Source of the DNA: a virus
Virus record (IMG/VR): IMGVR_UViG_3300028556_000036
Coordinates: 1-24,293 of that record
Strand: one strand, 5' to 3'
DNA: 24,293 nt
A program made the translations under genes and the position numbers. Below, in pieces: positions 1 through 9,651 of the stretch. Under the pieces are notes generated by a model. It was given only the letters and a program-made list of their open reading frames with translations. It did not search any database and was not told the origin of the DNA. Within the stretch, counting starts at the first letter, position 1, and each line of letters opens with the position of its first letter.

Positions 1-667
1 GAGCGCCGACCGTGCTGTTGCTACCCGTGCCGATAACGACCTGAAGCGAATTGCCCAAGCTGCCGGTATAAATTCCGGTGAAGGTGATTCCAGCCGTGAA
101 GGTAAGATCGAACTTCGCGCCGGTGCCGCTGCCGGAAGACGACGCTTGCGCGACTGGATTGGCCGGAATAGTGGCTTGCGTGTAAGCGCCTGGGGTCGTG
201 ATGGTGACTGTGGCGACCGCCCCTGTATTGACGGTAGCGACGGTTAAGACGCCTCCGCCCGGCAGGGTGATGGTGTCGCCCACGGTATAGCCAGTACCGG
301 CATTACCGCTATGCACGATAGCCGTGGCTATAGCTTGCTGCTTCAAGATGCTGCTGGCCGCTACGTCCGTGCCGTCCGTGACGCGGACAAGGCGCAGACT
401 GGCCGCGCCGCCCTGTGACGCTGCGGCTGCTACGACGGTGCCGAGATCGTACTTGCGCGGCTGCATCTGGCCGAACTGATTGGAAGTGTCGGCGACGCCG
501 CTGGCGATAGTAGGGCTGTTCACCGGCCCCCATGTGGCCGTACCGACGATGCCCAAGATATTCGTGGGGACGCCGTTAAGCAGCGTCCAGGAAGGGGGGA
601 CGATTTGGACGATAAGGCCTGGAACAACGAGTCCAGTCGTATTGATCTGCCCAGCTTGGACAATCAT
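1..667 (-). CDS. Contractile tail sheath protein, N-terminal part (runs off the left edge)
   Basis: The first 222 residues are present and the 3' end lies outside the window. The sheath forms the outer contractile tube of a myovirus tail. Sheath-type features are 'TTGLVVPGL' near the start, 'GVPTNILGIVGTATWGPVN' (residues 32-50), 'YDLGTVV', 'RVTDGTDVAAS' (95-105) and 'YTGSLGNSLQVVIG' (200-213), an order typical of phage sheath proteins. Residues about 114-190 do not belong to the usual fold: they are a Gly/Thr-rich repeat pair related to the protein at 6787-8274. The start is supported by AAGGGAG seven bases upstream of ATG. The gene is last in the visible minus-strand morphogenesis operon. 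Confidence 0.88.
   Translation of the reverse strand, partial: MIVQAGQINTTGLVVPGLIVQIVPPSWTLLNGVPTNILGIVGTATWGPVNSPTIASGVADTSNQFGQMQPRKYDLGTVVAAAASQGGAASLRLVRVTDGTDVAASSILKQQAIATAIVHSGNAGTGYTVGDTITLPGGGVLTVATVNTGAVATVTITTPGAYTQATIPANPVAQASSSGSGTGAKFDLTFTAGITFTGIYTGSLGNSLQVVIGTGSNSTVGA
98..328 (-). repeat. Beta-repeat pair inserted in the tail sheath
   Basis: Residues about 114-190 of the sheath contain one A-type unit ('GTGYTVGDTITLPGG') and one B-type unit ('PGAYT', 'PANPVAQ', 'SSSGSGTGA'). The same two unit types recur several times in the 495-aa protein at 6787-8274. The insertion lies between 'TDGTDVAAS' and 'YTGSLGN', which are close together in ordinary sheath proteins. Confidence 0.8.
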
Positions 668-943: not shown

Positions 944-1819
944 TTATATGTAAGTGGTTTTCGTCGGCGACCCAGGCGCAGGGCCATCGACATTTATTTC
1001 TATCACTTCGGCGACATTGACTTCGATAACCGTGATCTGCGGCGCGATGATAGGAACAACCGTCGCGTATTCAGCCGAATAAATGAAGTCGCGCCGGTAA
1101 ACCGTTTCCTTTTCCGGCCCATCCGTGACGGGGCTGCTGACATAGATAAAGCGGCAAACCGTCGTATCGGCCAGCGTGATAAAATTCCTGTCCGCGAGAA
1201 CGGGATCGAATAGTTTTCCCGCAGCGTCGCGCAGCGCAGGATCGGGACACCAGACCGAAATCATTATATTGCGCGTCTGGCGCTTCACTTCTTTGTAGGC
1301 CGTGCCGACAACACCGATGCGCGGCACAATGGAGTGGGCGCTTGGTATCGTAATGACGGGGCCGCTTGACGTGCAAGCCGTGTCTTCATTTATCAGTGCT
1401 GCCAGGCCTGTCGCAATCGAAGTCAGCGTATCGCCGGGCTGAACGCCATAGCTGTAGCCGATGCCGTTTACGATGGCGGCCACGTTCTGCGGGGTAGATA
1501 CCGTGCCGCCGACCGTCAGAGTCGTAGGCGCTGCAATCAGTGTCAGGGTAGGCGCTGGCAGGGGCAGCGTTTCATAATCGCTGCCGTACCGCGTCGTATT
1601 ACGTTCCACGCCCATCGGGTAGATGGACACATTGACGATGTTATCCGCCAACACATCTGCATCAAGATTGGCAGGGATTGGCCAGCCGCGATAAACCTTG
1701 ACTTCTACGGGCTGGCTTTCCGCGTTCAAAAGAACGGAAGGATTTGCGGTGCCGGTAGGATAAGCGATTTGTTCAATCAGGCTGACCAGCGCGTTTTCCA
1801 CGTCCGAAATGTCAGCCAT
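944..1819 (-). CDS. Tail-completion / tail-terminator-like protein
   Basis: 291 aa. I chose the ATG that begins MADISDVENALVSLIEQ because a longer in-frame start would read through most of the preceding gene. The chosen ATG sits one base after that gene's stop. The N-terminal helix plus 'VYRGWPIPANLDADV' and the later 'RRDFIYSAEYATV' resemble minor tail or completion proteins found between head-tail connectors and sheath. A central segment with 'YSYGVQPGDTLTSIATGLAALIN' looks like an inserted small domain, making the protein longer than simple tail terminators of about 130-200 aa. The C-terminus is Val/Ile/Pro-rich. It probably caps the tail tube or joins tail to head. The family assignment is by position and general resemblance. 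Confidence 0.72.
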   Translation of the reverse strand: MADISDVENALVSLIEQIAYPTGTANPSVLLNAESQPVEVKVYRGWPIPANLDADVLADNIVNVSIYPMGVERNTTRYGSDYETLPLPAPTLTLIAAPTTLTVGGTVSTPQNVAAIVNGIGYSYGVQPGDTLTSIATGLAALINEDTACTSSGPVITIPSAHSIVPRIGVVGTAYKEVKRQTRNIMISVWCPDPALRDAAGKLFDPVLADRNFITLADTTVCRFIYVSSPVTDGPEKETVYRRDFIYSAEYATVVPIIAPQITVIEVNVAEVIEINVDGPAPGSPTKTTYI

Positions 1820-1820
1820 T

Positions 1821-2165
1821 TTAGTTTTCCAGTTTCTTGCTGCGGCAGGTTGTAACCAGCGGCCCCCAATCGGCGCTAATGACCTGATAGCGGTCACTTT
1901 GATCGTCGATAATAATGTCGCGGTTTTTGACGCTGCCAAGCGGCAATTTGAAGATGATTAAATAGATCGGTTCGCCCTGCGTGTTCGCGGGCAGATTTGA
2001 TGCCGGTGCCGTGCCGATGCGTTCCGCTTCGATATGCGCCGCTATCCCCGTGAACAAAACAGTTTCATTCTGTGGCGTTACACCGCTATAGGCCTGTGCG
2101 CCCGGCGCTGCATTCGATTTGGGACGATTTATGCTTATCGTGCGCGGATATAGAAAGCATCCCAT
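1821..2165 (-). CDS. Head-tail joining (stopper-like) protein
   Basis: 114 aa, starting two bases from the preceding stop, so probably translationally coupled. The C-terminal half reads 'VKNRDIIIDDQSDRYQVISADWGPLVTT', a pattern typical of SPP1 gp16-type head-closure proteins, in which a 'rD.I..dg..Y.V' strand pair forms part of a small beta-barrel. Stoppers bind below the adaptor ring and keep DNA inside the head before tail attachment. The position between adaptor and tail-completion genes fits. The similarity is structural-pattern level only. Confidence 0.68.
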   Translation of the reverse strand: MGCFLYPRTISINRPKSNAAPGAQAYSGVTPQNETVLFTGIAAHIEAERIGTAPASNLPANTQGEPIYLIIFKLPLGSVKNRDIIIDDQSDRYQVISADWGPLVTTCRSKKLEN

Positions 2166-6786: not shown

Positions 6787-8274
6787 TTAGGCGAAGATAG
6801 ATACGTCCATCGTTCCAGCCGCTACCGCATTGGCGGCAAGGCGCGGATTGGCAACGATGTTAAAGCCGCTTGTCGTCTTCGTCGCCGGATCAGCGTAGGC
6901 GACCGCATCCTGCCCGCATTGAATGTGGACGTTGTAGTTCGCGGGAAGCTGTATGGCGACCGGAATGGTAGCCGATGCGCCCGCCGTCTGGCTGATAACA
7001 GGCGTCAGGGAAGCTGCCGTAACTGGTGCGCCGCCGGTCGTGGCCAGCGTCGTCGAACTGTCGTAGTTCGACCCGCTGCCGGATTTGGCAACGCTTACAA
7101 TTGTCCAGCCCGTGACATTGATCGTGGCACCTGTACCGCTGCCGGATGAACTGCCCTGCGCCACAGGATTCGCTGGAAGGACGGTATAGACGCCAGCGGT
7201 AGTGGCCGTGACGCTGACGACGCCAAAAGCCGTCGTATTGAACGTCGCGCCGGTTCCTGCCCCTGTCGTGGATAGCTGCGTAAAGCTGGAAGCATTCGCG
7301 GTATAGACACCTGGGCTGGCCACGGTGATCGTATTGACACCGAAAACAGCCGTGTTGAATGTAGCGCCCGTGCCGCTGCCGCTGGTAGCGAACTGCGTGA
7401 AGGCCGCTGTATTGACAGTGTAGCTGCCCGCCGTCGAAACCGTGAAGGTCTTGACGCCGAAGCTGCCCGTCTGCCATGTCGCGCCCGTGCCAGCGCCGGA
7501 AGTGGCGGCCTGGGTGAACGTGGTAGCGAGAACGGTATAATCGCCCGCGCGGGAAATGTGGAAGGTAAGGATTGCGCCGCCGCCGTCCACGGTGTCGACC
7601 GTGATCTGTGCCGCAGTTCCAGCCGTTCCGCCCGCAAGCGTAATGACTTCGCCGATAACGTACCCGGATCCCGTGTTGTTTTTCGCAACGCTGGCTAACT
7701 GGCCGTGCGTGACGGTGAGAATGGCCTTGGTTCCGGCTGTGCCGCCCGCAAGGGTGATCGTATCGTTAATCGCGTAACCCGCGCCGATGGCATTACCTAC
7801 CGCCGAAATCAGCTTGGTAGTGGCGACGGATAGAACAGCCGGTGTGGTGTAAGTGCCGCCCTGAAGCGTGAGATTGTCCCCAGCTGCATAGCCGGTTCCA
7901 GCCGCGTTCACAGCCGCGCTGACAAGGCCGGTCGTGGCAACAGTCCAGACGCCGTTCGCGCTTTCCGTGCCGCCGGTTTGCGTGATGGTGTCCGCCGGTG
8001 CGTAACCCGTACCAGCCGCCGCCGGTGCGCCGGTAAGAATGCCCATCGAAGCCGCGAAGGTGTCACCCGTGCCGTTGCCGCCCTGAACCACGGCGGGCAG
8101 CGAACCATAATTGCCGCCAGAATTTACGGTGACGCTGGATACGGTGCCGGGGCCGCCCTGATTGGCCATCTGAAAATTCGCATACAGAACGCGATCCTCG
8201 CGGGCCTGAACCTGCGTCGCCCCTGCTGTGCTTGGCTGTGTCATTACGTCGATAACGCGAATATCTTTAGACAT
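6787..8274 (-). CDS. Large Gly/Thr-rich repeat protein, probable virion surface protein
   Basis: 495 aa. A short non-repetitive N-terminus (1-44, 'KDIRVIDVMTQPSTAGATQVQ') and C-terminus (about 429-495, 'IPVAIQLPANYNVHIQCGQ') flank about ten units of about 38 residues. Four A units ('GTGYAAGDNLTLQGG' type, 82-235) are followed by four B units ('PGVYT...FTQ...SGAGTGATF' type, 236-390), with a divergent unit at each end. The composition (Gly, Ala, Thr, Val) and spacing predict small beta-sandwich or solenoid modules, as in capsid decoration and fibre proteins. It sits between portal and head-assembly genes. Decoration or head-fibre function is inferred; no enzymatic motif is seen. It starts three bases after the portal stop. 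Confidence 0.75.
   Translation of the reverse strand: MSKDIRVIDVMTQPSTAGATQVQAREDRVLYANFQMANQGGPGTVSSVTVNSGGNYGSLPAVVQGGNGTGDTFAASMGILTGAPAAAGTGYAPADTITQTGGTESANGVWTVATTGLVSAAVNAAGTGYAAGDNLTLQGGTYTTPAVLSVATTKLISAVGNAIGAGYAINDTITLAGGTAGTKAILTVTHGQLASVAKNNTGSGYVIGEVITLAGGTAGTAAQITVDTVDGGGAILTFHISRAGDYTVLATTFTQAATSGAGTGATWQTGSFGVKTFTVSTAGSYTVNTAAFTQFATSGSGTGATFNTAVFGVNTITVASPGVYTANASSFTQLSTTGAGTGATFNTTAFGVVSVTATTAGVYTVLPANPVAQGSSSGSGTGATINVTGWTIVSVAKSGSGSNYDSSTTLATTGGAPVTAASLTPVISQTAGASATIPVAIQLPANYNVHIQCGQDAVAYADPATKTTSGFNIVANPRLAANAVAAGTMDVSIFA
6991..8142 (-). repeat. Tandem coding repeats (about ten units of about 115 bp)
   Basis: The units encode two alternating repeat families within the 495-aa protein: A units at about 7570-8031 and B units at about 7105-7569, with divergent units on either side. 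Recurrent peptide cores are 'GTGY..GD.ITL.GG' and 'SGSGTGATF'. DNA identity between units is partial, so the array is old rather than freshly duplicated. Confidence 0.8.
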
Positions 8275-8277
8275 TGG

Positions 8278-9651
8278 CTATTTTCCTTTCGATTTGGAGG
8301 CTGATTTTGCTTTCGGCTTAGGCTCCGGTTTCGGTGCCTTCGTGCCGTCTGAATTGAGGTCGGGGTCGTCTATCAGTGCCGAGCCACGCGCGGCTTGCAT
8401 GGCAATCTGCGTGTCGGCGAATACCATGTCGGCCCAGGCGTCGTCGTTTGGTTCTTCACCTATTTTTTCCCTGATTTGGTTCGGGGTGAAGACGTTTATC
8501 TTGTAAAACTTGTCGTAAATGTTCGCCTGGGACTCTTCATCTTCACGATCAAGGCCGACGAAGCGGAATTCGATTTGCGTGAAGCCAAGTTTGCCTTGAA
8601 TGCAATCGCTGTTTATTTTGCGGCTGAACAGCTTGGCATTTGGCTTGATAGCCATATCCCAATCGCGGTCTTCCCCGACTTCCGCCGTGTTGCGGTTTAC
8701 GTCGCGCTCAATACCGAAATTCTGCGGTGACAGATCGAAGCTGGTGCCGATTTCCGACTTCTGCACTTCCTGCCATTTCAGGAACAGGGCATCGTCACCA
8801 TCCGGCGTAAGTTTCAAAGCCTCGGCGTCCTTGTTCGCCATCAGCGGCATTTTGCCGAGGCCTTCGACTTCAGCCGTCCACCAAGCCCTGAATTTATCAA
8901 GTCCGGCCTGATCTATATTGCTGCCCAAATTCAGGATGGTCGAAGGCTTGGCATTGCTGGCCAGATTTCCGGCGTATTCCGTGGCACCTATAACGCGGCT
9001 GATCGTGTTAAACGCGACTTCAAGCTGCCCCATGCCGAATGGATTGCTGGTGCATGGGTTCGGCGCTATGTAGCAAATTTCGTCCGCGCGAAGATCGACA
9101 CCGGAGACATTGCCAGCAATCGTTCCATACCCAGGAACCTGACAGTATTTCGGCTGCTTAGGATTCCCGTCCCACATCGGATAAAGCTGGATGGACAGGC
9201 CATCGACGGGGTACAGCCAAAGCGGTTTCTGTGCATCGCTGCCGATCTGCATTTCAAAGCAGCCAGCGCCGCAGAAAATATCTTCAAAGATGCGTTCCAC
9301 GAAGGACGACCAGTTATCGTCAAGGTTCGGCATCTTCAGGCAGTTCGTGACTATTTCGATCTGCCGATTGATTTCAGAGTTCGGGTCGACCCCTTTGATG
9401 GGGACGACTTCCCATTCCAGATTGGCGATAGGGTTCTTGATGGCGTTAATCGCGCGACGCGCATACGGATTGCGGCTGAAGGCGCGAAGGTTCCAAGGCG
9501 TCGGCTTAAAGACGGGACGCTTGTTCTGCGTCGGCTGCCCAGCCAGCATCATCTGCAAGCGCGGATAAATGTCGGTCTCGCGCTGCGGGATGCCGCGTTT
9601 CCTGCCGGGCCTAAAGCGTTTGAATATGTCGAATCCGAAAGTGGCTGGCAT
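8278..9651 (-). CDS. Portal protein
   Basis: 457 aa, the usual length for HK97/SPP1-type portals. It forms the dodecameric vertex ring through which DNA enters. Portal-like stretches are 'NPYARRAINAIKNPIANLEWEVVP' (early helix), 'RADEICYIAPNP' (wing strand), 'NLGSNIDQAGLDKFRAWWTAEVEG' (stem-flanking helix) and 'NVFTPNQIREKIGEEPNDDAWADMVFADT' near the C-terminus. The tail is Lys/Pro/Ser-rich ('KPEPKPKAKSASKSKGK'), disordered and basic. It lies directly downstream of the large terminase, the standard order. No Mu-type fused head protein is attached. Confidence 0.85.
   Translation of the reverse strand: MPATFGFDIFKRFRPGRKRGIPQRETDIYPRLQMMLAGQPTQNKRPVFKPTPWNLRAFSRNPYARRAINAIKNPIANLEWEVVPIKGVDPNSEINRQIEIVTNCLKMPNLDDNWSSFVERIFEDIFCGAGCFEMQIGSDAQKPLWLYPVDGLSIQLYPMWDGNPKQPKYCQVPGYGTIAGNVSGVDLRADEICYIAPNPCTSNPFGMGQLEVAFNTISRVIGATEYAGNLASNAKPSTILNLGSNIDQAGLDKFRAWWTAEVEGLGKMPLMANKDAEALKLTPDGDDALFLKWQEVQKSEIGTSFDLSPQNFGIERDVNRNTAEVGEDRDWDMAIKPNAKLFSRKINSDCIQGKLGFTQIEFRFVGLDREDEESQANIYDKFYKINVFTPNQIREKIGEEPNDDAWADMVFADTQIAMQAARGSALIDDPDLNSDGTKAPKPEPKPKAKSASKSKGK

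Follow-up and report, generated by a model that had tools for sequence, protein, structure and literature searches.

A tail sheath insert homologous to T4 gp18 Domain I, with further copies of the same module in a probable head protein

The tail sheath protein of the phage analyzed here carries an inserted module that close relatives lack and that profile comparisons relate to Domain I of the phage T4 sheath protein gp18, and a second virion protein of the same phage carries a series of segments of the same family. With a probability of roughly 0.75, we read the sheath insert as a gp18 Domain I-like knob that faces outward on the sheath, provides a repeated docking surface and was drawn from a pool of modules shared among phages. 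The window, by which we mean the whole stretch of DNA that was analyzed, is an IMG/VR virus record of 24,293 bases. The sheath gene runs off its end, so that the C-terminal sheath domain lies outside the window. The sheath features are the following, in the order in which the gene is read:

2..667, minus strand: tail sheath gene, N-terminal 222 codons, assigned from phrog_23, Gp18_domIII_N and full-length relatives; the 3′ end is missing at the contig edge
353..388, minus strand: conserved sheath motif VRVTDGTDVAAS, directly before the insertion site and kept in relatives; residue 105 of the relative L085 is equivalent to T4 gp18 residue 91
92..352, minus strand: inserted segment of about 87 residues, delimited by alignment with the sheaths of L165, L166 and L089, which have about 7 residues there
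95..325, minus strand: A-B module, assigned as a T4 gp18 Domain I homologue from the A2/A8 profiles, a PDB-wide search, hhalign and weak PF22639 matches
50..91, minus strand: conserved sheath sequence GITFTGIYTGSLGN, directly after the insert, from alignment with relatives

Since the starts of related sheaths line up with the ATG at 667, we take this codon to be the real start; the open reading frame listed by the program begins at a TTG at 685. Consistent with a contractile sheath, the product matched the phrog_23 tail sheath family (E 6e-13), and Gp18_domIII_N matched residues 43–102 (E 6e-4, under the curated cut-off). Because the gene is cut, the core fold was analyzed on the full-length relative L085, which is 75% identical to the available window sheath; its predicted model (mean pLDDT 79) had solved sheaths as its best matches in the PDB, with Z up to 33. 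Queried as a single sequence, the window sheath brought up nothing related among viral or genome contigs, and its relatives were recovered by an alignment-based search. The nearest sheaths in bacterial genomes came from Planctomycetota (L165, L176 (Gemmataceae), L166 and L184), which suggests that the host of this phage is a planctomycete.

In the window, VRVTDGTD is encoded at 365–388, the following AAS ends at about 353 and GITFTG starts at 91, placing the insert between VTDGTDVAAS and GITFTGIYTGSLGN. The sheaths of L165 (a Limnoglobus roseus prophage) and L166 (a Planctomycetota MAG), which are 84–86% identical to the window sheath over the N-terminus, read VRVTDGTDAAAS-GTAGTGI-GITFT..YTGSLGN without any insertion, and the L089 sheath is the same as that of L165. 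The gap between AAS and GITFT is about 7 residues in L165 and L166 compared with about 87 in the window. The stretch from VRVTDGTD to YTGSLGN spans about 30–37 residues in phiKX1 and 68 other relatives and more than 100 in the window; all 69 of the sheaths first recovered with a recognisable site had short linkers. The same insert was present in the sheaths of L085 and L086, which are 75% and 65% identical to the available part of the window sheath. By these alignments, the sheath insert is a discrete inserted module. The first-pass annotation, made from the letters alone, had placed it at about residues 114–190, which is correct when counted from the ATG at 667, its interval 98–328 being the core of the segment at 92–352; its statement that the module splits an ordinary sheath likewise holds, as the L165 and L166 proteins are continuous at the site.

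Among 189 sheaths (188 distinct proteins with an identifiable site, plus that of the window), the site was occupied by the module in 6, by a different domain in 5, by a relocated native segment in 6 and by a short linker in 172; because the sample consists of the best matches to a few queries, these frequencies are not population estimates. The alignment indicates that, as the first-pass annotation required, the segment is not a general part of the sheath family. On a tree of 117 sheath cores from which the insertion site had been omitted, the module label needed 5 changes, at least 4 of them forced by well-supported branches, a distribution that suggests repeated gain of the module in the sheath family.

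The different domain found at the insertion site (L098, L100, L143, L170 and L171) has about 127–129 residues. The relocated segment, ALATAIAAAINNGxSGLRGPSxLVVAT, normally follows PEVFDNI; it stood at the Domain I site in the sheaths of L087, L088, L105, L107, L108, L109 and L136 and was missing from its usual place in the aligned members L087, L088 and L107. This state required 4 changes on the sheath tree, which suggests that the native segment was also relocated repeatedly. In the sheaths of L259 (7359–9398) and L268 (233–2251), the module occupies a different loop, the one following PEVFDGI or PEVYDGV, which means that sheaths can accept it at two or more sites.

The module had been described as a beta-repeat, and it is not a new kind of repeat, since PDB search and hhalign show homology to T4 gp18 Domain I. 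A profile of 30 modules from different proteins, compared with all PDB sequences, returned T4 gp18-type sheath entries as its top five matches (E 0.002–0.007), the alignment covering gp18 residues 102–184. The best unrelated chain had an E value of 0.16, and a gp18-related Klebsiella phage sheath (E 0.18) fell among the unrelated chains; an earlier 12-module profile searched against the PDB had missed gp18. Because the domain-level E value for gp18 in the PDB search was about 0.02, much of the weight is borne by the profile–profile result. When 70 modules were compared with Domain I of eight T4-like sheaths using hhalign, 71 columns were aligned end to end (95.5%, E 1.6e-8, score 45.5), compared with 9.2 ± 2.0 (maximum 18) for 200 column-shuffled controls and at most 12.9 for seven other gp18 segments. 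In hhalign, the sheaths aligned up to L085 residue 105, which corresponds to T4 residue 91, and T4 Domain I comprises residues 98–188. We conclude from these profile comparisons that the insert is homologous to gp18 Domain I and occupies the same sheath site. The fold of gp18 Domain I is a six-stranded barrel plus a helix, and the insert would adopt a fold of this kind. Sequence identity between the module and Domain I is low, and the predicted sheath model has low to moderate pLDDT over the insert (about 47–75).

The family searches gave weaker matches. PF22639 (Gp18_dom_I) was the commonest Pfam match of the modules, found for 14 of 30 and sub-threshold wherever a score was shown; the window insert scored 13.1 bits against a cut-off of 27, and a repeat of the L107 head protein 20.8 bits (E 4e-4). 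Because the score lies under the curated PF22639 cut-off, we call the module Domain I-like or homologous to Domain I and not a member of the Pfam family. The Ig-like family Big_6 was matched weakly by 2 of 30 modules (best E 0.0044). Seven of 12 modules, the sheath insert included, matched phrog_9703, annotated as "head decoration"; this does not make the sheath a decoration protein, because the match is to the shared module and not to the whole protein.

The second carrier lies beside the portal gene:

6787..8274, minus strand: 495-aa portal-adjacent virion protein with about nine A/B module segments, from the module HMM, synteny and weak decoration/cement matches
6790..6978, minus strand: C-terminal domain of the 495-aa protein, about 63 aa, common to repeat-free orthologues in an orthologue alignment
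8278..9651, minus strand: portal protein (PF04860, E 3.6e-38; phrog_12), which places the 495-aa gene in the head cluster

The first-pass annotation had counted about ten repeats in this protein, close to the 8–9 segments detected by the module HMM, and had proposed that it shares its module with the sheath, for which the comparisons give strong evidence. BLASTP aligned the two proteins with 42% identity over 78 aa (E 9e-8), and a second segment, ending in PANPVAQ, was 61% identical over 33 aa. The Smith–Waterman score of the insert against the 495-aa protein was 133 compared with 57 ± 7 in shuffles, none of 1000 reaching as high; it lay about 10 SD above shuffles of either sequence, including shuffles that preserved local composition. 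The rest of the sheath scored at background against the 495-aa protein (50 compared with about 59), as did every other window protein tested. At the DNA level, comparison of the two window genes gave short matches only. The 331-aa neighbour of the sheath (window 944–1939) was considered as a second carrier of a sheath-derived insert and rejected, the region in question being native to all orthologues examined; it resembles part of the phrog_165 sheath family (E 1.7e-6) and did not match the other sheath insert.

The 495-aa gene lies immediately downstream of that for the portal, as in a head cluster, and has syntenic orthologues with fewer repeats (L107, L166, L086, L146 and L111) and repeat-free ones that consist of a short core only, of about 100 aa (L189, L209 and L237). 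The short cores of L189 and L209 gave weak matches to phrog_122 head decoration (E 0.0035) and to Phage_cement_2 (E 0.0047). The 495-aa protein is thus a probable head decoration or cement protein, with a likely location on the head. Its AlphaFold model was poor (mean pLDDT 48; 73–81 for residues 431–480), and a fold search with it gave no usable match. Since orthologues without repeats exist, alignment identifies both the sheath and the 495-aa protein as base proteins to which modules have been added.

When viral contigs were searched with the module, 121 relatives came back, of which 80 were kept. The 47 carriers included other sheath families, some of which have it in a different loop, as well as a DUF3383 protein and members of head closure Hc2/Hc3, baseplate wedge, nozzle, phage stabilisation, cement and fibre-like families; some of these PHROG names may derive from the module and not from the protein that hosts it. 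A 1110-aa protein of L257 (1645–4974) has at least five tandem A-B modules. Neither the 495-aa protein nor the insert matched anything in protein searches of a phage collection, probably due to low-complexity filtering. It is an evenly balanced question whether T4 gp18 Domain I is itself one member of a widespread mobile display domain, found in sheath, head-decoration, head-closure, baseplate and fibre proteins, with the Domain I site acting as a socket for interchangeable knobs. The homology to gp18 Domain I supplies both a name and a solved relative for a beta-repeat found again and again in phage structural proteins, where it has been labelled "head decoration", "head closure", "baseplate wedge" or "unknown", and it serves as a warning that such labels can stem from the shared module instead of the protein.

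The first-pass annotation had read the shared module as a surface domain swapped, within one phage, between proteins of the tail and the head, perhaps for adhesion. Part of this stands, as a probable head protein does carry the same module, and both sheath and head proteins carry it in the window and in L086; the B-halves of the two window proteins are 60% identical over about 50 residues, and weak binding to surface carbohydrates has been suggested for Ig-like domains of phages (PMC9230969). The identities nevertheless argue against copying within one lineage. The sheath insert shared 69% and 63% identity with its counterparts in sister sheaths and 40–58% with the head-protein modules, whereas modules in unrelated proteins of unrelated phages reached 64% (L248) and 58% (L247). 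In a tree of 73 modules, whose resolution is too low to prove or exclude any donor, the window sheath and head modules did not group, and L107, L166 and L146 have the head module but not the sheath module. Because unrelated carriers are as close to the insert, direct head-to-tail exchange inside the window phage is not supported by these comparisons, and a better fit is that modules were taken up repeatedly and independently from a shared pool; we consider it quite improbable that an adhesion module was copied between the two proteins in one lineage, giving tail and head a common ligand on the host surface. The near-identical cores PANPVAQ and SSSGSGTGA, which had been taken as a sign of exchange, do not mark a recent event, because PANPVAQ and SGSGTGA are the consensus of the module family. 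Less probable still is independent origin of Gly/Ser/Thr-rich beta-repeats by low-complexity convergence. The strongly biased composition and the empty protein searches with the module alone, the latter probably an effect of filtering, would be in keeping with it, but composition-preserving and local-order shuffles never reached the observed score, the full A-B order and the length of about 75 residues are common to dozens of proteins, and the shuffled-column and other-segment controls stayed flat.

Returning to the reading of an outward knob drawn from a shared pool, we propose that the insert acts as an accessory sheath domain of the gp18 Domain I type, placed just after the first half of the sheath core domain, where the chain would loop outward. 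Because it holds the same chain position as T4 Domain I, it should project outward, forming a small beta-barrel knob on every sheath subunit, outside the sheath–sheath contacts and the contraction. T4 gp18 Domain I protrudes from the sheath without making inter-subunit contacts and binds the baseplate and the retracted fibres; fibre retraction is inhibited by three Domain I mutations (G106, S175 and A178) that map to two loops (PMC3004832). In the T4 sequence we fetched, these residues lie one position later than published, consistent with an uncounted start methionine; two loops contain them, one preceding the Y-x-V-G-D motif and a serine-rich one preceding the last strand, and these loops correspond to the two glycine/serine-rich loops that are the most conserved of the module. 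By analogy, the equivalent loops may bind something in the window phage. Homology to T4 Domain I, together with the shared insertion site, makes surface exposure likely, as the first-pass annotation had suggested, and outward display is the safe part of the functional reading. An insert that mainly packs on neighbouring sheath subunits as a stabiliser, with no binding role, seems unlikely: additional sheath domains in general have been suggested to stabilise the virion (PMC9230969) and an additional domain of phage 812 touches a neighbouring subunit, but T4 Domain I at the equivalent site makes no such contacts and near-identical sheaths do without the insert.

On the reading as an outward knob, the insert would present a repeated binding surface along the tail, its likeliest use being weak docking, either to the host surface or, following the T4 example, to fibres or baseplate of the phage itself; the fibre genes of this phage lie outside the contig. 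T4 Domain I, which offers the best experimental precedent, holds retracted tail fibres and the baseplate and not a receptor on the host. The 495-aa protein would present several of these modules in series, most probably on the head, and the module would have been taken up repeatedly by phages from the shared pool. Should the module dock fibres the way T4 Domain I does, its copies on head and tail could jointly form a docking track for retracted fibres. As display domains are gained or lost at the sheath site between close relatives, the knob role can be tested by comparison or deletion, and the site suggests itself as a natural place for foreign domains on contractile tails.

Compared with known systems, the module is most like T4 gp18 Domain I (PF22639; PDB 3FO8, 3FOA and 9MKB), with which it shares profile homology over its full length, the insertion point and a length of about 75–91 residues. 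The two differ in that Domain I is a standing part of T4-like sheaths, whereas the window module is a rare insert, recently gained or lost, in a family that is mostly without it; the module is richer in Gly, Ser and Thr and occurs also in non-sheath proteins of other phages, and Domain I has extra residues between its two halves, unlike the module. Our literature search, which did not extend to most subscription journals, found no paper linking the repeat family to gp18 Domain I or showing head-protein copies. Additional domains of type 2 and 3 sheath proteins are known, mostly Ig-like sandwiches, for which binding to the host surface is the usual proposal (PMC9230969). Ig-like virion domains, in the account of Fraser et al. 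2006 cited in PMC9230969, resemble the module as optional domains found across virion protein classes and phages. They belong to a different sequence family, however, and the nearest solved relative found for the module is gp18 Domain I.
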